The notes beneath the pieces are model-generated. The model saw nothing but the letters and a program-made list of their open reading frames with translations. It was not told the origin of the DNA and did not search any database. A DNA stretch of 64,000 nt from Henriciella mobilis (lineage in GTDB: Bacteria; Pseudomonadota; Alphaproteobacteria; Caulobacterales; Hyphomonadaceae): contig NZ_QWFZ01000020.1 in the NCBI RefSeq assembly GCF_003576315.1, forward strand, positions 186,001-250,000, written 5' to 3'. Positions 1,642 to 11,452 of the stretch are shown here, piece after piece (the first letter of the stretch is position 1; every line of letters begins with the position of its first letter). The translations under genes and the position numbers were made by a program.

Positions 1642-3813
1642 ATGGATCCGATGGACGAAATCAGGCAGACCTTCTTCCTTGAATGCGAAGACCTGCTCCA
1701 GGCCCTCATGGAAGGCCTCGCGGCCATCGAAGGCGGCGATGAAGACCCCGAAACCGTCAACGCCATTTTCCGCGCGGTTCACTCCATCAAGGGCGGCGCC
1801 GGTGCGTTCTCGCTGGATGAGCTCGTAAAATTCGCCCACACATTCGAGACGGTGCTCGACGAAGTGCGCGCGGACCGCATGGAGCTGACGCCTGCTCTGA
1901 TGTCGGTCTTCTTCCGCTCGGCTGACCAGCTGTCGGACCTCGTCGAAGCCGCTTCGGTTGGCGATTCGGTCGATGCCGAACGCATGAACGCGATCATGCT
2001 CGAACTCGACGCGCTCATCGATTCCGACGGGTCCGATGCCGGCGAAGTGGAGTTCGAAGCCATTCCGCTCGATTTCTCCATGGATTTCGGCGACGTCGAG
2101 GATGACCTGCCCGCGCCTGGCGGCGATAGCTGGACGATCAGCTTCAAGCCGCATGCCACGATTTTCGAGCGCGGGAACGACCCCGTGCTCCTGCTGCGCG
2201 CCCTCGCAGAGCTGGGCGAGACCGAGGTGACCTGCAACACCGACGCCCTGCCCGACCTGGCGGACATCGACACCGCCCAATCCTGCCTGTCCTGGGACAT
2301 CACGCTGAAGGGCGAGACCGTCAGCGAAGACGACATTCGTGAGATCTTCGAGTTCGTCGAAGGCGATTGCGACCTGACGATAAGTTTCGGTGCCGCCGCT
2401 GACGCGTTGCCAGAGATCGATCTTCCGCCGCTCGGCGCCCCTGATGAGGGCGAAGAAACCGGCTGGGAACTTGCCACGCCGTCACAAGATGCCGATGAAC
2501 CGGCCGCCATCCCGGACCTGCCTGAGCTGCAGGAACCGGCTGCGGCAGAGGCCGCGCCAGCCGAAACCGAGAAATCTTCCGGCGCCTCGCCCGCCCGCGC
2601 TGAGTCATCGCGCGCCGGGCCGACAGCGACCGTCCGGGTCGAGCTGGACCGCGTTGACCGCCTGATCAACCTGATCGGTGAACTCGTCATCAACCAGTCC
2701 ATGCTGGCCCAGGCCGTGTCCAATTCCGGTGTACCGCAGGATTCACCGCTGATGGATGGCCTCGATGAGTTCAAGCGCCTGACCCGCGCCATCCAGGAAG
2801 GCGTCATGGCGATCCGCGCCCAGCCGGTCAAACCACTGTTCCAGCGCATGTCACGCATTGTGCGCGAAGCGGCCGCCGCCACCGGCAAATCGGTCCGCCT
2901 GGTGACCGAGGGTGAAGGCACCGAGGTCGACAAGACCGTCATTGAGCGCCTCTCCGATCCGCTGACGCACATGATCCGCAACGCGGTCGACCATGGCCTC
3001 GAGCAGACGGCAGACCGTGCCGCCGCCGGCAAGAGCGAGGAAGGCACGGTTCACCTGACCGCGTCTCACCGCTCCGGACGCGTGATCATTGAAATCGCCG
3101 ACGATGGCGCCGGCATCAACCGCACGCGCGTGCGCGAAATCGCCGTCGAAAAGGGGCTAATCGACCCTGATGCTGCCCTGAGCGAAGCGGAAATCGACAA
3201 CCTCCTCTTCATGCCGGGCTTCTCGACTGCCAAGAATGTCTCGAACCTCTCGGGGCGCGGGGTCGGCATGGATGTCGTGAAGAAGGCCATCCAGTCGCTC
3301 GGCGGCCGGGTGACCCTGTCCTCGACGCCCGGCAAGGGCACGACCTTCACGATCAGCCTGCCGCTGACGCTTGCCATCCTTGATGGCATGCTGGTCCGCG
3401 TCGCCGACCAGACGAAGGTGGTGCCGCTGACCGATGTGGTGGAAACACTCAAGCTCAATCCTTCACAGGTTCACGGCCTGTCGAATGCCGACCGGGGCAT
3501 CATGGTCCGCGGCGAATTCGTTCCACTGGTCGATGTTGCCTGCGAACTGGGTTACCGTCCGCCGCTGGACAAGCTCTCGCACCACGTCGTCGTGCTCACG
3601 GAAACCGAAGGCGGTTCACGGACCGCCTTTATCGTCGACCAGATCCTTGATCAGCGCCAGGTTGTCATCAAGGGCCTCGAAGAAAACTATCACTCGGTCC
3701 CGGGCATCGCCGCCGCGACCATTCTGGGTAATGGCGAAATCGCACTCATTCTGGATGTTGCCGCCCTGGCAACAGGCCGCAACCGGCTCTCAGACGTCAT
3801 TCGGGCCGCATAG
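1642..3813 (+). CDS. cheA: Chemotaxis histidine kinase CheA
   Basis: A 723-residue hybrid-free CheA. The N-terminal Hpt (P1) domain has the phosphorylated histidine at H47 in AVHSIKGGAG. Residues ~150-240 form a P2-like alpha/beta insert, followed by an acidic, Pro/Ala-rich linker (~250-325). P3 dimerisation begins at VELDRVDRLINLIGELVINQ. The P4 ATPase has the N box (HMIRNAVDHGLE), G1 (IADDGAGI) and G2 (GRGVGMDVV). The C-terminal P5 domain is CheW-like. It autophosphorylates at the receptor array and passes phosphate to CheY and CheB. cheW follows after 8 bases. Confidence 0.97.
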   Translation: MDPMDEIRQTFFLECEDLLQALMEGLAAIEGGDEDPETVNAIFRAVHSIKGGAGAFSLDELVKFAHTFETVLDEVRADRMELTPALMSVFFRSADQLSDLVEAASVGDSVDAERMNAIMLELDALIDSDGSDAGEVEFEAIPLDFSMDFGDVEDDLPAPGGDSWTISFKPHATIFERGNDPVLLLRALAELGETEVTCNTDALPDLADIDTAQSCLSWDITLKGETVSEDDIREIFEFVEGDCDLTISFGAAADALPEIDLPPLGAPDEGEETGWELATPSQDADEPAAIPDLPELQEPAAAEAAPAETEKSSGASPARAESSRAGPTATVRVELDRVDRLINLIGELVINQSMLAQAVSNSGVPQDSPLMDGLDEFKRLTRAIQEGVMAIRAQPVKPLFQRMSRIVREAAAATGKSVRLVTEGEGTEVDKTVIERLSDPLTHMIRNAVDHGLEQTADRAAAGKSEEGTVHLTASHRSGRVIIEIADDGAGINRTRVREIAVEKGLIDPDAALSEAEIDNLLFMPGFSTAKNVSNLSGRGVGMDVVKKAIQSLGGRVTLSSTPGKGTTFTISLPLTLAILDGMLVRVADQTKVVPLTDVVETLKLNPSQVHGLSNADRGIMVRGEFVPLVDVACELGYRPPLDKLSHHVVVLTETEGGSRTAFIVDQILDQRQVVIKGLEENYHSVPGIAAATILGNGEIALILDVAALATGRNRLSDVIRAA

Positions 3814-3821
3814 ATCGGAGT

Positions 3822-4298
3822 ATGCAAATGGCTGAACAGCAAAACCAGCGTCGTGAACACGAAGACAAGTTCATCTCCTTCTGGGTCGGCGAACAGGAAT
3901 TCTGCGTCGACATCATGTCCGTGAAGGAAATTCGCGGCTGGACCGAACCGACGCGCATCCCGCGCGCCCCGGACCATATCTGCGGCGTGATCAATCTGCG
4001 CGGTGCCATCCTGCCGATCATCGATTTCGCCGCCCGCGTCGGCATGCCCGTGCGCGAGCCGGACGCGTCGACCGTGATCGTCGTGACCCAGAACGCCGAT
4101 CAGCTGGTCGGCATGAAGGTCGATGCCGTTTCTGACATCCTGTCCCTGAGCACCGAGAGCATGCAGCCGATCCCGGACATCGCCTCGGAATCCGCCAAGG
4201 AGTTCTTCAAGGGCGTCGTCACGCGCGAAGAAGGCATGATCCGGATCGTCGACCTGTCGCGCATCGCGCACGTTGAACCGGAAAACCTTGCCGCATGA
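3822..4298 (+). CDS. cheW: Chemotaxis adaptor CheW
   Basis: A 158-residue protein made of one CheW SH3-like double barrel: FISFWVGEQEFCVDIMSVKEI, the conserved IPRAPDHICGVINLRGAILPIID block, then VVTQNADQLVGMKVDAVSDIL. It couples MCP tips to CheA P5 in the signalling array. The ATG at 3828 region gives MQMAEQQN; the second Met (3828) is also possible. The gene ends in a four-base ATGA overlap with cheR at 4295-4298, so the two are translationally coupled. Confidence 0.96.
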   Translation: MQMAEQQNQRREHEDKFISFWVGEQEFCVDIMSVKEIRGWTEPTRIPRAPDHICGVINLRGAILPIIDFAARVGMPVREPDASTVIVVTQNADQLVGMKVDAVSDILSLSTESMQPIPDIASESAKEFFKGVVTREEGMIRIVDLSRIAHVEPENLAA

Positions 4299-5173
4299 GC
4301 GCTAGCGTAGCGAACGCCGATCCGTCTGTTTCCGCCACCCGGATCGAAGGGCTGGGCGACAGCGAGTTCACCCGCATCGCCGACTCGATCAAGACAGAGG
4401 CTGGCATCTGCCTGCCGGAGAGCAAGCGAACGCTGGTCCACTCACGCGTGTCCAAGCGGCTTCGCGCGACCGGCATGACAAGCTTTCGCGAGTATTGCGA
4501 CTTCCTCGACACCCCACAGGGCAAGGCAGAGCGGCTGGAACTCCTCTCGGCGCTGACGACCAATGTCACACGTTTCTTCCGCGAGCCACACCACTTCGAA
4601 ATTCTCAAGACAGTGACGCTGCCACCCTTGGTCGAGAAGGCCCGCAAGGGTGGACGGGTGCGCATCTGGTCGGCTGGCTGCTCCAGCGGCGAAGAGCCCT
4701 ACTCGATCGCCCTGACGCTGCTGTCGCTCCTGCCGGACGCTGGCAAGCTGGATGTCAAAATCCTGGCCACCGATATCGACAAGCATATCCTTCACCAAGG
4801 CCGTCAGGGCATCTACGATGCCGAAGACATCGAAATGATCCCGGCCGATATGCGACGAAACGCCTTCAGCGCGGCCCCTGATGGCGACGTGTCGAAATAT
4901 GAAGTTGGCGCTCCGGTCAAACAGCTGGTCGCCTTCAAGCCGCTGAACCTGATCAGTCCGGCCTGGCCCGTCAAAGGCCCGTTCGACATCATTTTCTGCC
5001 GGAATACCACGATCTACTTCGATGCCCCGACGCAGCACGGTGTCTGGAACGGCTTCGAGCGTGTACTGGCCCCCGGCGGTTACTTGTTTATCGGACACTC
5101 CGAGCGCGTGAACGGTCCAGCTGCGGCAAGGTTTTCTACAGCTGGGCTTACAACCTACAGAAAAAATAGCTGA
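4295..5173 (+). CDS. cheR: Chemotaxis protein methyltransferase CheR
   Basis: A 292-residue SAM-dependent methyltransferase that methylates receptor glutamates. It has the N-terminal helical CheR_N region (FTRIADSIKTEAGICLPE), the SAM site RIWSAGCSSGEEPYSIAL, the LATDID strand and the FDIIFCRNTTIYF motif. NTT replaces the more usual NVM/NVL but does not touch catalytic residues known to me. It carries the beta-subdomain that in pentapeptide-dependent CheRs docks to receptor C-termini, which fits the docking tail on the nearby MCP. A 151-base, more AT-rich gap follows, so the next receiver gene may have its own promoter. Confidence 0.95.
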   Translation: MSASVANADPSVSATRIEGLGDSEFTRIADSIKTEAGICLPESKRTLVHSRVSKRLRATGMTSFREYCDFLDTPQGKAERLELLSALTTNVTRFFREPHHFEILKTVTLPPLVEKARKGGRVRIWSAGCSSGEEPYSIALTLLSLLPDAGKLDVKILATDIDKHILHQGRQGIYDAEDIEMIPADMRRNAFSAAPDGDVSKYEVGAPVKQLVAFKPLNLISPAWPVKGPFDIIFCRNTTIYFDAPTQHGVWNGFERVLAPGGYLFIGHSERVNGPAAARFSTAGLTTYRKNS

Positions 5174-5324: not shown

Positions 5325-5711
5325 GTGTCAAACAAGGATTCTCTGAGAGTCTTGGTGGTGGACGACATGTCGACCAGCCGGGGTATTCTTCAAAACACGC
5401 TTGAATCCTTTGGCATCCGGAATGTCTTTACCGAGGCGGACGCGAACGCCGGTCTGAATTTCATGCTTCGCACGCCGGTGCACCTTGTCATTTCCGATTA
5501 CAACATGCCGGGAAAGAACGGGCTGGAATTCCTGAAGACCATCCGCACCAACAAGCAGACAGCACGCGTCGGCTTCATCCTCGTCTCCGGATCCAGCAGT
5601 CCCGACATCATCCGCGTCGGCCGCTCCTACGGCATGAACAACTTCCTGCCCAAGCCCTTCAACGCGGACTCGCTGCGCAAGACCGTCGAAGCGGTTGTCG
5701 GGAAACTATAA
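5325..5711 (+). CDS. Second CheY-like response regulator
   Basis: A 128-residue single receiver with acidic pocket D13/D14, phosphoacceptor D58 in SDYNMPGKNG and Lys110 in LPKPF. The start is GTG (GTGTCAAACAAG) after a GGAG-like site. It differs from the first CheY at many positions, including SSG in place of the usual T/S-T-E segment after beta 4. It lies two bases ahead of the small protein at 5714, a tight pair, which suggests the two proteins work together. Possible roles are motor-binding CheY or phosphate sink; the sequence does not decide. Confidence 0.92.
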   Translation: MSNKDSLRVLVVDDMSTSRGILQNTLESFGIRNVFTEADANAGLNFMLRTPVHLVISDYNMPGKNGLEFLKTIRTNKQTARVGFILVSGSSSPDIIRVGRSYGMNNFLPKPFNADSLRKTVEAVVGKL

Positions 5712-5713
5712 GA

Positions 5714-6094
5714 ATGTCCAAGACCGCCACCGCCAGACGCGACCCTGTTTCCTACGGCCACTCTTCCGATTTCTGGCAAGGCGCCGCTCGCCTGCTGACC
5801 GATTGCCAGGCGCACTGCCTGCATATCCAGAACACGCTGTCGACCTATATCGCCGACCACTCAATCCTCTCGGTCGAGGAATCGCGTCACATCCAGAATG
5901 TCGACCGCCTGACGCAGACGCTTGGCGCCCTCGCCGACGTGATGCGCTCGGCCCACGCCGCCGGCCTTGAAGCGCCCGAAGGGCTCGAGCCGCTGGTCGA
6001 GGCCAGTACGCTTGCCGTGGTGCGCGACATGCTGCTCCATCCCGGCGAGCAGCCCGACATGCCGGACGAGGCCGACACCGTCACCCTTTTCTGA
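5714..6094 (+). CDS. Small helical protein, candidate CheZ/CheT-like CheY-P phosphatase
   Basis: A 126-residue, mostly helical protein with no strong family resemblance. In its central helix the stretch NVDRLTQTLGALADVM contains D64-x-x-x-Q68, the acid/glutamine spacing of the CheZ catalytic motif (DLTGQ in E. coli), and is followed by a similar hydrophobic pattern. After a disordered acidic, Pro-rich segment the protein ends in TVTLF, resembling in character the Phe-ended CheY-binding tail of CheZ. Small DxxxQ proteins such as CheT of Sinorhizobium meliloti are known from alphaproteobacterial che loci. The gene begins two bases after a receiver gene and is last in the operon, before a terminator. 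The phosphatase role is inference; a general unknown chemotaxis protein is the alternative. Confidence 0.6.
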   Translation: MSKTATARRDPVSYGHSSDFWQGAARLLTDCQAHCLHIQNTLSTYIADHSILSVEESRHIQNVDRLTQTLGALADVMRSAHAAGLEAPEGLEPLVEASTLAVVRDMLLHPGEQPDMPDEADTVTLF

Positions 6095-6140
6095 CGCGCC
6101 CGCGCGTCTCCCCGCTTTTCCATTGAAGAAGGCCTACACG

Positions 6141-6172
6141 CGCGCCTGCCAGGCCGGCAGGGCGCGTTTTTT
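6141..6172 (+). terminator. Rho-independent terminator of the che operon
   Basis: A G+C-rich hairpin, CGCGCCTGCC pairing with GGCAGGGCGCG with one bulge (6141-6166), is followed at once by six T (6167-6172). It lies 46 bases after the stop at 6094 and points in the direction of the cheY-to-5714 operon. On the opposite strand no T run follows the hairpin, so it should not terminate the convergent mcp-cheB-cheD operon. Confidence 0.85.
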
Positions 6173-6268: not shown

Positions 6269-6835
6269 CTAGAAGAGTTCGATATCGTCGCCCGGCACAT
6301 GACGCGGCGGCGGCGGCGCGACCGGCACTTTCACGGCATCCGGCGCCAGCGCCACGAAGGCATGCTGCACCCGTCCCGTTGCCGGCCAGAAGCGCAGCTT
6401 GCGCGCCCGTGTGCCGCCGACGCATTGCGACACGACGGGGATGCCCTCCATCTGCAGGAATTTGAGCGCGAAGCTCGAATTGCGCTCGCCGATATCCGAC
6501 AGGCCGGCAATCATCCGGGCACCGCCAAAGACCTTGGCCTCCATCCGGATGCGCGAGGCGCCCTGCTTCAACAGGTCGTTGATGAGCAGTTCCATCGAGT
6601 TCACGCCATAGGACAGGTTGGCAGTGTCTGCATTGCCCGTCTCAGGCAGCAGGAAATGGTTCATTCCGCCGACATGGACCGTCAGATCGTACAGACAGAC
6701 CGCCACACAGGAGCCAAGCAGCGTGGTCAGCATGACACCCGGATCGCCCGACGTCGCGAACTCGCCCTGGATGATGTTGTGCCGGCTCGCCAGTATCGGC
6801 TGGGTGGGTTGCAGTGCGGTCATGCTGTGATCCAT
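6269..6835 (-). CDS. cheD: Chemoreceptor glutamine deamidase CheD
   Basis: A 188-residue CheD that deamidates receptor glutamines (and may hydrolyse methyl esters). The catalytic set T37, C43 and H60 lies in LTTLLGSCVAVCLYD and GGMNHFLLP, with the same 6- and 17-residue spacing as the characterised Thermotoga enzyme. The protein ends in an acidic DDIELF tail. The ATG at 6835 overlaps cheB by 16 bases; the fifth codon is also ATG (6823) and makes an exact ATGA overlap with the cheB stop, so the true start may be there, giving 184 residues. It is the last gene of the mcp-cheB-cheD operon. Confidence 0.94.
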   Translation of the reverse strand: MDHSMTALQPTQPILASRHNIIQGEFATSGDPGVMLTTLLGSCVAVCLYDLTVHVGGMNHFLLPETGNADTANLSYGVNSMELLINDLLKQGASRIRMEAKVFGGARMIAGLSDIGERNSSFALKFLQMEGIPVVSQCVGGTRARKLRFWPATGRVQHAFVALAPDAVKVPVAPPPPRHVPGDDIELF

Positions 6836-7842
6836 TCACCGGCGGCCTTCAAGGTCTCCGCGGCGATCATGTTGAGGGGAAGCTGGATATTCACCGCACC
6901 GATTTCGGCGGCAACACGCGGCATGCCATAGACGACACAGGTCGCTTCGGACTGGGCGATCGTATAGCCGCCCCGGTCGCGAATGGCTTTCAGGCCGTCA
7001 GCGCCGTCGCGCCCCATACCGGTAAGCAGCACGCCCACAGCCCGAGGCCCAAGCGCTGACGCTGTCATAAAAAGTCTGTCCACTGATGGACTATGCCCGC
7101 TCACAGGCGGCCCGTCGACAAGAAGGCAGGTCGGCTCGTGCTTGCCGGACACCTCCAGGTGCCGGTCGCCGCCCGGCGCAATATAGACGTGGCCGGGCCG
7201 CAACACGGTGCCATGCGTCGCTTCCCGGACGGTCGGCGCGCAATGATGGTTCAGGCGGGAGGCGAAACTCGCCGTGAACCCGGACGGCATGTGCTGCACG
7301 ATCAGCGTTGGCGGACAGCTGGCCGGAAATGAACGCAGTATACGGAACAATGCATCCACACCACCCGTCGAGGCGCCGATGAACACAACCTTGTCGGCAG
7401 GATTGTAAGCCTCTCGCCGTACCGTTTTTTGCTCAGTATACTGTACATTTGCTGATGCGCGCGCGGCATTCTTGAGGATGGCGGGCAGCTCAAGGAAGGG
7501 ATTGGGCGTGTCGCCGCCAACAGGCTTGCCGATGCAGTCCACAGCACCAATTGCCAGCGCGTCGATGGCTTTCTCGCTACCGGCTGCCGTCAGGCTCGAT
7601 ACCATGACAACCGGCATCGGGCGAAGCTGCATGATCTTTTTCAGGAACTCGACGCCCGACATACGCGGCATTTCCACGTCGAGCGTTATCACATCGGGAT
7701 TGAGGCGCTTGATGGCCTCGCGCGCCTCGTAGGGGTCTCCAGCTTCTCCGATCACTTCGATTTCGGGATCCTGGCGAAGCACCGACTTCATGATCGCCCG
7801 AATGACCGGTGAATCATCTACAATGAGAACACGAACGGGCAT
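6820..7842 (-). CDS. cheB: Chemotaxis protein-glutamate methylesterase CheB
   Basis: A 340-residue two-domain protein. The N-terminal receiver has D9/D10 and phosphoacceptor D55 in TLDVEMPRMSG. A linker (~125-150) leads to the methylesterase domain with the catalytic Ser in FIGASTGGVDA, the His in IVQHMPSGF and the Asp in TGMGRDGADGL. Phosphorylation by CheA would activate it to remove methyl groups from receptors. The gene starts 77 bases after the mcp stop and is coupled to cheD by overlap, so receptor and both receptor-editing enzymes form one transcription unit. Confidence 0.96.
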   Translation of the reverse strand: MPVRVLIVDDSPVIRAIMKSVLRQDPEIEVIGEAGDPYEAREAIKRLNPDVITLDVEMPRMSGVEFLKKIMQLRPMPVVMVSSLTAAGSEKAIDALAIGAVDCIGKPVGGDTPNPFLELPAILKNAARASANVQYTEQKTVRREAYNPADKVVFIGASTGGVDALFRILRSFPASCPPTLIVQHMPSGFTASFASRLNHHCAPTVREATHGTVLRPGHVYIAPGGDRHLEVSGKHEPTCLLVDGPPVSGHSPSVDRLFMTASALGPRAVGVLLTGMGRDGADGLKAIRDRGGYTIAQSEATCVVYGMPRVAAEIGAVNIQLPLNMIAAETLKAAGEWITA

Positions 7843-7919: not shown

Positions 7920-10310
7920 TTAAAAATCGTTCCAGTCCTCATCGTCCACTGATGTGTCCGGCTCGAATTTCAGAGCGCTCGTCCCCCGTGAAGCAGGCTT
8001 CGGAGCGGCGGCGGGTGCCTGGCTCAGCTGGGTCTCAGCGAAGGCCTTCACCCGTTGCTGCTGCTCGCTGACCGCATTGACCGGCTTCTTGGTAACGGTT
8101 GGTGCCGGCGCGGCCATGGCCGTCTGGCCAGCGCGGTTGAACCGGAAGCGGGCCACGAACTGCATCAGCTTCTCGGCATCCTGGGTCAGCGCATGGCTTG
8201 CCGCGGTCGACTCCTCGACCATCGCTGCGTTGGATTGCGTGACCTGGTCGAGCTGGTTGACCGCGGTGTTGATCTCCGCAACGCCCGTCGACTGTTCCTG
8301 CGCGGCCGCTGAAATCGAGGCGACGGATTCGCTGACTTTCGCGACAGCCTCTACGATTTCCTTCAGCACCTTGCCGGTCTGGCCGACATTCTCGACGCCG
8401 TCCGACACATGGCTCGAACTCTGCGTGATGAGGTCCTTGATCTTCTTGGCGGCTTCCGAAGACCGTTGGGCCAGAGCCCGCACTTCAGATGCGACAACCG
8501 CAAACCCGCGGCCTGCATCGCCAGCCCGGGCCGCCTCAACGCCGGCATTCAGCGCCAGGAGGTTGGTCTGGAAGGCGATCTCGTCGATGACGCCAATAAT
8601 CTGGGCAATCTCATTGGACGAGGATTCGATGTTGCCCATGGCCGCCACGGCATCGTTGACGACCTTGTTGCTCGACTCCGCGCTGTTGCGGGCCGAGGAG
8701 ACAAGATCGAAAGCCTGCTTGGCGCTCGACGCGGTGGAGGATACGCTCGAGGTGATCTGCTCCAGCGCGGCTGCTGTTTCTTCCAGCGTAGCCGCCTGGC
8801 TTTCGGTGCGGCGCGACAGGTCGTCGGCTGCATGGCTGATTTCCCGGGCGCTGTCACCGATCTGGTTGGAACTCAGCACGACCGAGCTCAGCACCTCTTC
8901 GAGGTTGATCATGGTCGAGTTGAAGTCGCGGCGCAGCTGCTCATATTTCGGATGGAAGTCATTCTCGATGCGGTAGGTCAGGTCGCCGCCGGACAGTGAG
9001 CCGAGCGCCTCGCCGAGCGCCTCAACCGTCTTTGCCGTTTCCTGGTCCATCAGGTCAGCTTCAGCGAGCTTCTCCTTGAACGTATCGAGCGTCTTCGCCA
9101 TGTCGCCGATCTCATCCTGACGATCCGTATGCGGAATGGCGAGTTCGAACTTCTTGTTGGACACATCTTCCATGGCCTGGCGCACAGCTGTCAGCGGGCG
9201 CGTTACGCGGCGGGCCACCATGACCCCAAGCACGCCGAGCACCAGCGCCGTGATCCCTATCTGGATCATCATGTGATTGCCGACCGTTGCCGCCGGTGCG
9301 TTGATCTCAGCCTTGGTCTTGCTGGCGAGATAGGCCCAGCGCACACCTTCGAACTCGAAGGAATCGTAGGCTGTGAACGCGGCCCGCCCCGCAAGGTCGG
9401 GCGTCGCCATCACGCCGGACTGCCCGGCCAGCGCCTTGCGGACCGCTTCATTATCGACCCGGGTCGCCAGAATATCGTCCCCGCTGGTGAGCGGCGTGTC
9501 GTTGCGCATCAGAAAATCGCCGCCAACGATGACCGAAGAGCCGGTCTCACCGAGGTCTTCGGTGCGCGACACGAGTTCATTCATCCGGTCGATCGGCATC
9601 TGGTAGGCTAGCACGCCGATGAAGTTTCCGGCTTCATCGGTAATTGGCGTGGACAGGAAGCTGGCCGGGGCCCCATCGCTAGGCGCGTAAGGCTTGAAGT
9701 CGAGGAAAGCGAGATCACCACTCGACGCGTTTGAGCGCGCTTTGCTGAAGGCCTGTGACAGATCGGTCTCGGCCGCCGGCCCAGAAAGCGCATTCGATGC
9801 AAAATCAGCCTGCTTGGAAACCGAGTAGATGACGTTGCCACTACGGTCCATTAGCAGGATATCATAATAGCCCTTTTCTTCCAGAAGGCCCCGGAAGTAG
9901 GGGTGATAGTCGGCGTGGACGTCGCGATAGTTCACGGACTCGCCGGTTTCAGAGACCACAGTCGGCAATCCGGCGCCATCGCTCTCCGCGCTGGAATAGG
10001 CGCGCCGGAGGTCTTCGCCAGCACTCGCGCCGAGCCCGGCAAAGGCCTCGCTGAAACCGCCAATCGCTTCGCGGACGGTCGGGTTTTCGCTGTTTGCGCG
10101 AATATCGGCCTCGATCGATTCCAGCCACGCGCTGAGAGAATGCTCATGTGCTTTCAGGGTATGATGGAGCTGTTCCTTGGCTTGCTCACGGAACGTATTG
10201 TCAGCGCTCATATAGCCGAGCGCCGCCGTGATCGCGGCGGTCGAGACGCTGAAGGCGACAATCGTCATTGGAAGCGTTTGCGAGAGCTTCCGGTTAGCAA
10301 AGAGGTTCAT
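7920..10310 (-). CDS. Methyl-accepting chemotaxis protein with C-terminal docking pentapeptide
   Basis: A 796-residue transmembrane receptor: TM1 at ~15-32, a periplasmic double-Cache-like sensor (~35-340), TM2 at ~343-362, a HAMP domain, a second HAMP-like segment (~435-485), then the long MA coiled coil. The hairpin tip contains IAFQTNLLALNAGVEAARAG (Gly-Val in place of the usual Ala-Val). After a Pro/Ala-rich linker the protein ends in DEDWNDF; DWNDF fits the x-W-x-x-F pentapeptide that tethers CheR and CheB. I chose ATG 10310 because GGAG lies eight bases upstream and the hydrophobic N-terminus follows directly; upstream codons at 10352 and 10382 are less likely. Ligand unknown. Confidence 0.93.
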   Translation of the reverse strand: MNLFANRKLSQTLPMTIVAFSVSTAAITAALGYMSADNTFREQAKEQLHHTLKAHEHSLSAWLESIEADIRANSENPTVREAIGGFSEAFAGLGASAGEDLRRAYSSAESDGAGLPTVVSETGESVNYRDVHADYHPYFRGLLEEKGYYDILLMDRSGNVIYSVSKQADFASNALSGPAAETDLSQAFSKARSNASSGDLAFLDFKPYAPSDGAPASFLSTPITDEAGNFIGVLAYQMPIDRMNELVSRTEDLGETGSSVIVGGDFLMRNDTPLTSGDDILATRVDNEAVRKALAGQSGVMATPDLAGRAAFTAYDSFEFEGVRWAYLASKTKAEINAPAATVGNHMMIQIGITALVLGVLGVMVARRVTRPLTAVRQAMEDVSNKKFELAIPHTDRQDEIGDMAKTLDTFKEKLAEADLMDQETAKTVEALGEALGSLSGGDLTYRIENDFHPKYEQLRRDFNSTMINLEEVLSSVVLSSNQIGDSAREISHAADDLSRRTESQAATLEETAAALEQITSSVSSTASSAKQAFDLVSSARNSAESSNKVVNDAVAAMGNIESSSNEIAQIIGVIDEIAFQTNLLALNAGVEAARAGDAGRGFAVVASEVRALAQRSSEAAKKIKDLITQSSSHVSDGVENVGQTGKVLKEIVEAVAKVSESVASISAAAQEQSTGVAEINTAVNQLDQVTQSNAAMVEESTAASHALTQDAEKLMQFVARFRFNRAGQTAMAAPAPTVTKKPVNAVSEQQQRVKAFAETQLSQAPAAAPKPASRGTSALKFEPDTSVDDEDWNDF

Positions 10311-11452
10311 TTTTGTGGCTCCACGAAACGGAATGTATTTTGATTTTGGCATGCCTGGTTCACGGACGTCCCGACTGCACATCCTGCGGAGACCGTTTCG
10401 TTTTCTGGAACCAGATTAGGTTTGATAGCCGACCGAACGGGGGAAATTGGAGTGCCTTCACCTGCCTGAACGCACGCGTTTCCAGCGCCCCTATCACCGG
10501 TAGTTGAACTGCCAAGAAAAATCGCGACTAACGGCGTTGCCGCCTTCCGACCTTCTTGTGCGCAGTTCGTGTACATGGTGACGTTTTGCCTCCCCCCGGG
10601 TTGGTTGTCCGACTAGTCAGGGCTGGTTAAAAACTTGTTCACAACCAGTGTCTTGTTGCAGTCGCCCGCCCCGTCACACCGGCGCTTCAGGCGCAAGAAT
10701 CCCTCCGGCCCTTCACCAGCATGCCATCGTGCAGGAGAGCGCAAGAAAGAGAAATTTTCTGTAAGTGCTACAGAAGGAGCAGGCTTGCGGCGCAGCAGAA
10801 ACGCGGCGACGAGGCGCTTCGCAGGGACGTTCGCCTAATCCGGCACGGCGTGTGCAAAAAAATGTGTTCGCACTGAAAAAATGGCGCGGCGTGCAGACGT
10901 CTCGCGCCCCTCGATGATTCGTGCAGCACGTCGTCCCTTCAGCTTCAATACGCCGCTTGCAGAACCAAGGCCAGAGTCTTGAAACCTTAAGGGTAATATA
11001 TCTCTCTACCACTGGATGATCCGCTCCCGGGCGCGCGATGGTTCGAGCGGTGTTGGAGTCCCCACAGGCTAGCCAGTCCGGTCGGGGCGCAAGGCATGGC
11101 GGTGCTGCCTGGTGGCTGGCCCCGGATGGAGCCTGCGCCGGTCCGTATTCCGGTTGGCTTGGTCATCAGACTGGAATCATACCGCGGCGATACTGGAATC
11201 GGACTCTTTTCGTACTGCGGCTGGACCTGCCTTTGCCGGTCTCAAGCCAATCCGCCGAAGAAGGCCGGGACGTCAGCGCCATCCCGAGGCAAATCCGTTT
11301 CAGAGCAAGGGCCAAACCCTATGAGCCCGCTGCCTGTATTTCTGCCGCGAATGCAGGCACCGCCGCCCCCTGACACTTCGTCCATGCGGCGCAGCCGTTG
11401 CAAATGGTTCGGGGAGCCTCTTTATTCAAAGGCGTGCGCACAAGGACCAGCG
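10311..11452. other. Long intergenic region without a recognisable gene
   Basis: About 1.1 kb between the divergent mcp and a MarR-family gene. Open frames here (for example around 10635-10838, 10713-11012 and 11038-11373) have low-complexity or Arg/Pro-rich translations typical of G+C-rich noncoding DNA. The region contains an inverted repeat CTGGTT/AACCAG (10623-10628 and 10643-10648) and AT-rich patches near 10850-10880 and 10990-11005. It must include the mcp promoter, but I could not place it. A diverged gene remnant or a small RNA cannot be excluded. Confidence 0.5.
11398..11426 (+). promoter_or_regulatory. Candidate sigma70-type promoter of the MarR gene at 11453
   Basis: TTGCAA (11398-11403) and TTTATT (11421-11426) are separated by exactly 17 bases and lie 27 bases before the ATG, with an AAGGA ribosome-binding site between. 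The -35 region includes the 10-mer GTTGCAAATG (11397-11406), which is identical to part of the hpd operator palindrome. The promoter call is by consensus only. Confidence 0.4.

Follow-up and report, generated by a model that had tools for sequence, protein, structure and literature searches.

A Highly Divergent CheT-like Protein as a Candidate for Signal Termination in the Chemotaxis Cluster of Henriciella mobilis

The 126-aa protein encoded at positions 5714–6094 of the window (the whole 64,000-nucleotide stretch of DNA that was analysed) appears to be a highly divergent alphaproteobacterial CheT, which most likely ends the chemotaxis signal and has the adjacent receiver as its likeliest target; judged from sequence, we give this reading a probability of roughly 0.68. 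Synteny, profile links, an invariant motif, a predicted helical hairpin and the predicted exposure of the motif on the surface together lead to this assignment, through which a gene that would otherwise be left hypothetical gains an annotation. The function of CheT was reportedly assigned only in 2024, mainly from rhizobia. According to PMC12654446, citing Agbekudzi et al. 2024, CheT of Sinorhizobium meliloti is a DXXXQ protein that tells two CheY proteins apart and speeds the dephosphorylation of one of them; the same source describes a complex of CheT with CheR in which the phosphatase activity is retained.

The Chemotaxis Cluster of the Window

The che genes of the window run in the order STAS-cheY1-cheA-cheW-cheR, followed after a 151-bp gap by a receiver gene, the cheT-like gene and a terminator-like hairpin, while cheD, cheB and a chemoreceptor gene lie on the other strand. 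The features are as follows.

961–1257, + strand: protein with a STAS domain, occupying the CheS position (PF13466, E=1e-11)
1254–1619, + strand: cheY1, phosphoacceptor D53 (PF00072, E=6e-29)
1642–3813, + strand: cheA, the sole CheA found in the genome (ORF; single PF02895 match in the genome)
3822–4298, + strand: cheW (ORF and place in the cluster; related clusters have homologues next to cheA and cheR)
4295–5173, + strand: cheR (PF01739, E=4e-64)
5325–5711, + strand: stand-alone receiver of CheY2 type, 128 aa, phosphoacceptor D58, likely partner of the CheT-like protein (PF00072, E=7e-21)
5714–6094, + strand: cheT-like gene, putative divergent CheT family member, 126 aa (ORF; found by a CheT-family profile made without it; beside a CheY2-type receiver as in related clusters)
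5894–5917, + strand: QxxDxxxQ motif codons Q61 to Q68 (Q61 5894–5896, D64 5903–5905, Q68 5915–5917), invariant in 16 aligned members and in the blind match at locus L225
6068–6091, + strand: acidic linker and Phe-terminated tail (EADTVTLF; from the sequence; CheD and most CheT proteins have a similar tail)
about 6138–6172, + strand: GC-rich hairpin resembling an intrinsic terminator, with T6 behind it, at the end of the receiver-cheT unit (it matches the consensus and folds; z-score -1.66, statistically not strong)
6269–6835, - strand: cheD, ends DDIELF (PF03975, E=4.5e-27)
6820–7842, - strand: cheB (ORF and cluster position; matches cheB of related clusters)
7920–10382, - strand: chemoreceptor ending DEDWNDF, a receptor-type C-terminal pentapeptide (ORF and tail)

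Several points of the initial annotation are borne out by these features: the ATG at 5714 lies two bases past the receiver stop TAA (5709–5711), the phosphoacceptors of the receiver at 5325 and of cheY at 1254 are D58 and D53, D64-R-L-T-Q68 is present in the 126-aa ORF on the + strand, and an acidic linker with a C-terminal Phe closes the protein (DEADTVTLF). The sequence around the motif is H59-I-Q61-N-V-D64-R-L-T-Q68-T-L. DxxxQ alone is weak evidence because about 0.33 occurrences are expected by chance per 126 aa, as counted in the che proteins of 40 related loci, where the background of the longer QxxDxxxQ is 0.006 per 126 aa. The main evidence for the motif is that each of the 16 aligned homologues, as well as a blind match that came later, keeps Q61, D64 and Q68.

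Homologues and Synteny

The window protein has no relative among Pfam, NCBIfam and PDB sequences, and no Pfam family of any kind matched it up to E=5. Similarly, 60 relatives yielded no credible match, no homologue turned up when 84,980 species genomes were scanned with the window protein, and its genus yielded no close one. The adjacent receiver has close homologues in only 5/100 family members and in none of the window's own genus. Since direct searches with the window protein alone failed, synteny through the receiver and CheD was needed, and it can thus find CheT where BLAST-type searches fail.

In G116 and G079, a 125-aa ORF lies beside the receiver homologue, with 29% identity over 95 columns (pair E=6e-7), D-R-V-S-Q in the place of the motif and an ELF end, while in G072 a 121-aa ORF with D-E-L-S-Q follows cheB-receiver-cheD. 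Profile and CheD-anchored searches added G452, G366, G045, G374, G283, G163 and G146, all with QxxDxxxQ. The che clusters of these distant alphaproteobacteria therefore show two gene orders: cheR-receiver-[gene], with the homologue directly after the receiver (G116, G079, G452, G374, G146 and G277), and cheB-receiver-cheD-[gene], with the homologue after receiver-cheD (G072, G045, G283 and G163). The latter is the rhizobial order cheB-cheY2-cheD-cheT. The rhizobial set comprised 80 named loci gathered with CheY2 of S. meliloti (PDB 1p6q) as query, and a QxxDxxxQ ORF stands in the cheT position after cheD in 79/80 of them; the ORF in this position in S. medicae precedes a fliF-like gene. CheY2-type receivers precede CheT, directly or via cheD, in nearly all CheT clusters.

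An out-of-sample success came when the family model was searched across the class, which found G277 (L225), a genome absent from model building. Its cluster has the order cheR-receiver-[gene], facing a cheD remnant and a cheB encoded in the opposite direction, which is the order of the window, and its gene carries D-Y-L-R-Q and a GDLDLF end, with Q, D and Q kept. The cheD of this cluster (L225 1968–2204) is shortened to 78 aa and apparently degenerate, which suggests that a cluster can lose CheD and retain CheT. A further match in G465 (L224) was a chemoreceptor fragment and was rejected as a false positive. In G214 (L101), the cluster contains cheD and a receiver of CheY2 type, with no CheT directly behind them.

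Profile Evidence for CheT Membership

When the window protein was held out, the family profile still found it with E=2.6e-5, and when its two nearest relatives were held out as well, the value was E=0.0014; the best among 400 shuffled-copy controls was E=0.12 and 0.55 for these two profiles, respectively. One control, bg116, scored just behind the window protein with every profile that found it, and was taken as a stop-to-stop fragment that contains the same ORF and left out of the controls. The rhizobial CheT profile alone ranked 9/10 other members above all controls, and the receiver-adjacent subgroup aligned with rhizobial CheT at hhalign E=6.7e-8 (probability 94.6). The link between the window protein and rhizobial CheT runs through these intermediates because the direct comparison with the rhizobial profile was not significant (E=25). 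Identity to rhizobial CheT is only about 17%. Among the 16 aligned members, with a mean identity of 22%, the only invariant residues besides the start Met are Q61, D64, Q68, L100 and L107, so that D64 and Q68 are conserved in the homologues beside receiver genes, and the DXXXQ of the window protein sits at the same alignment column as that of rhizobial CheT. Four family members scanned with Pfam models gave no match. The CheT family can thus be defined beyond rhizobia by QxxDxxxQ and two Leu in helix 3.

The likeness to CheT of S. meliloti, S. medicae and Agrobacterium (Atu0522) includes, besides this profile homology through intermediates, small size, a helical make-up, a gene placed after a CheY2-type receiver in the che cluster, QxxDxxxQ in the second helix, a third helix of the L100/L107 type and a tail that usually ends in Phe. 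Two differences are evident. The rhizobial gene follows cheD, whereas the window gene directly follows the receiver, and its cheD and cheB are read from the opposite strand; and the rhizobial tail is DF(D/E)xF, whereas that of the window protein is TVTLF.

Predicted Structure and Proposed Mechanism

AlphaFold2 models of single chains, made from an alignment of window and related-locus sequences with the nearest homologues left out, show both proteins as a similar helical hairpin with a third helix: the helices span residues 17–48, 54–82 and 91–108 in the window protein, with a hairpin pLDDT of about 90, and 15–41, 48–76 and 86–104 in S. medicae CheT. D64 and Q68 fall within helix 54–82, in agreement with the initial annotation, which had placed the motif in a predicted helix. 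V63, L70 and M77 form the hydrophobic side of this helix, from which D64 lies at about 100–125 degrees, Q68 at about 150–165 degrees, and Q61 and Q68 taken together at about 150–175 degrees; the helical phase thus places D64 and Q68 away from the hydrophobic core, on the helix surface. Foldseek searches of the PDB with the window and S. medicae models gave no significant match and no CheZ among the matches listed, which for a bare hairpin is weak evidence either way.

In E. coli CheZ, D143 and Q147 are catalytic, and a water molecule placed by the Gln attacks the Asp-phosphate. By analogy with this and with the activity reported for S. meliloti CheT, the helical hairpin of the window protein would dock on the phosphorylated receiver, D64 and Q68 would both enter the receiver active site, D64 would contact the region near the conserved Lys as D143 does in CheZ, and Q68, like CheZ Q147, would position the water that attacks the Asp-phosphate of the receiver. 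For the window protein, we infer catalysis, the choice of target, dimerisation and any binding of CheR. If the activity is real, signal termination in such clusters would be explained without CheZ.

C-Terminal Tails and a Possible Role in Adaptation

A tail of the form [IVLAF][EDTQV][LFM]F is found at or near the end of 36/40 CheD proteins of such clusters (DIELF in the CheD of the window), while none of 165 CheA, CheW, CheR, CheB, CheY and STAS proteins has it. All CheD proteins of the 80 rhizobial loci have EFF as their last residues, and 76/79 rhizobial CheT proteins end in x-aromatic-x-x-aromatic with acidic residues, such as DFDFF and DFEAF. It has been reported that the receptor pentapeptide which tethers CheR and CheB carries Trp at position 2, Phe at position 5 and acidic residues at other positions (PMC7390727). 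The CheD tail resembles this xWxxF pentapeptide, but I or V replaces W, and the tail of the window protein is closer to the CheD form than to the rhizobial CheT form. Because CheT binds CheR, the CheT tail may be a CheR-docking element.

From these tails it could be argued that the window protein belongs to the CheT family and yet acts mainly in adaptation, as a scaffold or regulator of CheR and perhaps of the receiver, with the conserved polar stripe as a binding surface. The CheT–CheR complex described for S. meliloti (PMC12654446), the pentapeptide-like ends of rhizobial CheT and the position of the window gene near cheR all speak for such a role. It is nevertheless unlikely, since D64 and Q68 remain strictly invariant where identity over the remainder has fallen to 22%, a pattern more in keeping with an active site than with a docking face; in addition, CheT is still active as a phosphatase in its CheR complex according to that paper, and TVTLF has no aromatic residue at position 2.

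Target and Output

Under the preferred reading of the window protein as a signal-terminating CheT, the receiver encoded just upstream would be the most likely substrate, since that receiver type accompanies CheT in nearly all the clusters analysed; its phosphorylated D58 is probably dephosphorylated by the window protein, and CheY1 is a less likely target. The cluster holds two stand-alone receivers and adjacency is no proof of partnership, while S. meliloti CheT is reported to be selective for one CheY (PMC12654446); CheY1 or another receiver could thus be the target, or the protein could serve as a sink or transfer helper. We regard this as quite improbable, because almost every cluster examined pairs CheT with a receiver of the same type as the adjacent one, and because the CheT family lacks an invariant His for phosphotransfer.

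The genome itself contains one CheA, flagellar genes including FlhA and flagellin, and a FliM with the N-terminal LSKAEIEALL, a CheY-binding-type peptide, and the output of the system is therefore probably the flagellar motor. A non-flagellar output, suggested when PF02154 found no FliM in the genome, was dropped once FlhA, flagellin and the divergent FliM had been found. This FliM (L215 664–1710, G000:C17) is too divergent for PF02154 and keeps its FliMN_C domain, and its gene is separate from the main flagellar cluster, which is on C23. Besides FliN (C23) and FliM (C17), the genome encodes two further FliMN_C proteins (L216 1459–2388 and L213, G000:C9:206509), one of them beside MotA-like and MotB-like genes.

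Comparison with CheZ and CheC/CheX

PF04344 did not match the window protein up to E=5, and in the genome no CheZ was above the cut-off, the single hit of this model, a sub-threshold one (E=0.15), being a chemoreceptor. It has been reported that AXXF(Y)Q stands directly before DXXXQ in CheZ (PMC7750401); it is absent from the window protein, where residues 59–63 are HIQNV. When the family profile was compared with E. coli CheZ, the motif was not part of the alignment (hhalign E=0.22 for another region), and the CheZ-like hydrophobic pattern that the initial annotation had seen after the motif finds no support in the profile comparison. The Phe-terminated tail is not specific to CheZ because nearly all CheD of such clusters carry it, as do other proteins encoded there, so that its presence does not argue specifically for CheZ. 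An identity as CheZ is not supported: there is no PF04344 match, no AXXFQ, no profile match and no CheZ among the fold matches listed. Of the CheZ/CheT-like phosphatase originally proposed, the CheT part is well supported, by synteny, transitive profile homology, invariant D64 and Q68, the predicted hairpin and the surface motif, while the CheZ part is not.

The window protein has 126 aa, E. coli CheZ 214. That the former is a genuine CheZ pared down to the catalytic hairpin is very unlikely: DxxxQ in the second helix of the hairpin, the acidic linker and the Phe-terminated tail are common to both, against which stand the missing sequence, profile and fold matches listed above and a tail shared with CheD. 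The CheC, CheX and FliY families are alpha/beta. The window protein would share with them the proposed role, removal of phosphate from CheY-P, but it has no Pfam match to them and is predicted to be all-helical.

Receptor-like FQDxxxQ Proteins in Related Clusters

Clusters that lack cheT contain a receptor-like (MCPsignal) protein of 350–700 aa, in which QFQDxxxQ lies about 115 aa past the receptor tip and which usually has a C-terminal tail of the DIELF type. Among 30 CheA-containing loci with CheD, 8 have CheT, 19 have the receptor-like FQDxxxQ protein, none has both and 3 have neither (Fisher p=2.8e-5, uncorrected for shared ancestry). The motif region is similar to the catalytic helix of CheZ, in register (MQFQDLTKQ and DFQDLTGQ), and its comparison with a single CheZ gave hhalign E=0.034, which is suggestive only. 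On sequence grounds, the receptor-like protein might offer another, receptor-shaped way of ending the signal.

A broader and more doubtful proposal is that alphaproteobacterial che clusters use either CheT, accompanied by a receiver of CheY2 type, or else a soluble protein of receptor shape with a CheZ-type FQDxxxQ motif, never both. Under this proposal, CheT, the receptor-shaped protein and CheD have in common an x-hydrophobic-acidic-x-F tail akin to the receptor pentapeptide, which docks all of them on one partner, with CheR as the best candidate, thereby coupling signal termination to adaptation; we hold it only tentatively and think it more likely wrong than right. The exclusive pairing makes it testable which phosphatase serves the alphaproteobacterial che systems that lack CheZ. 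The receptor-like QFQDxxxQ proteins are encoded at L092 3207–4814, at L083 from 3550, L095 from 3752, L086 from 3651 and L111 from 767, and in further related che clusters.
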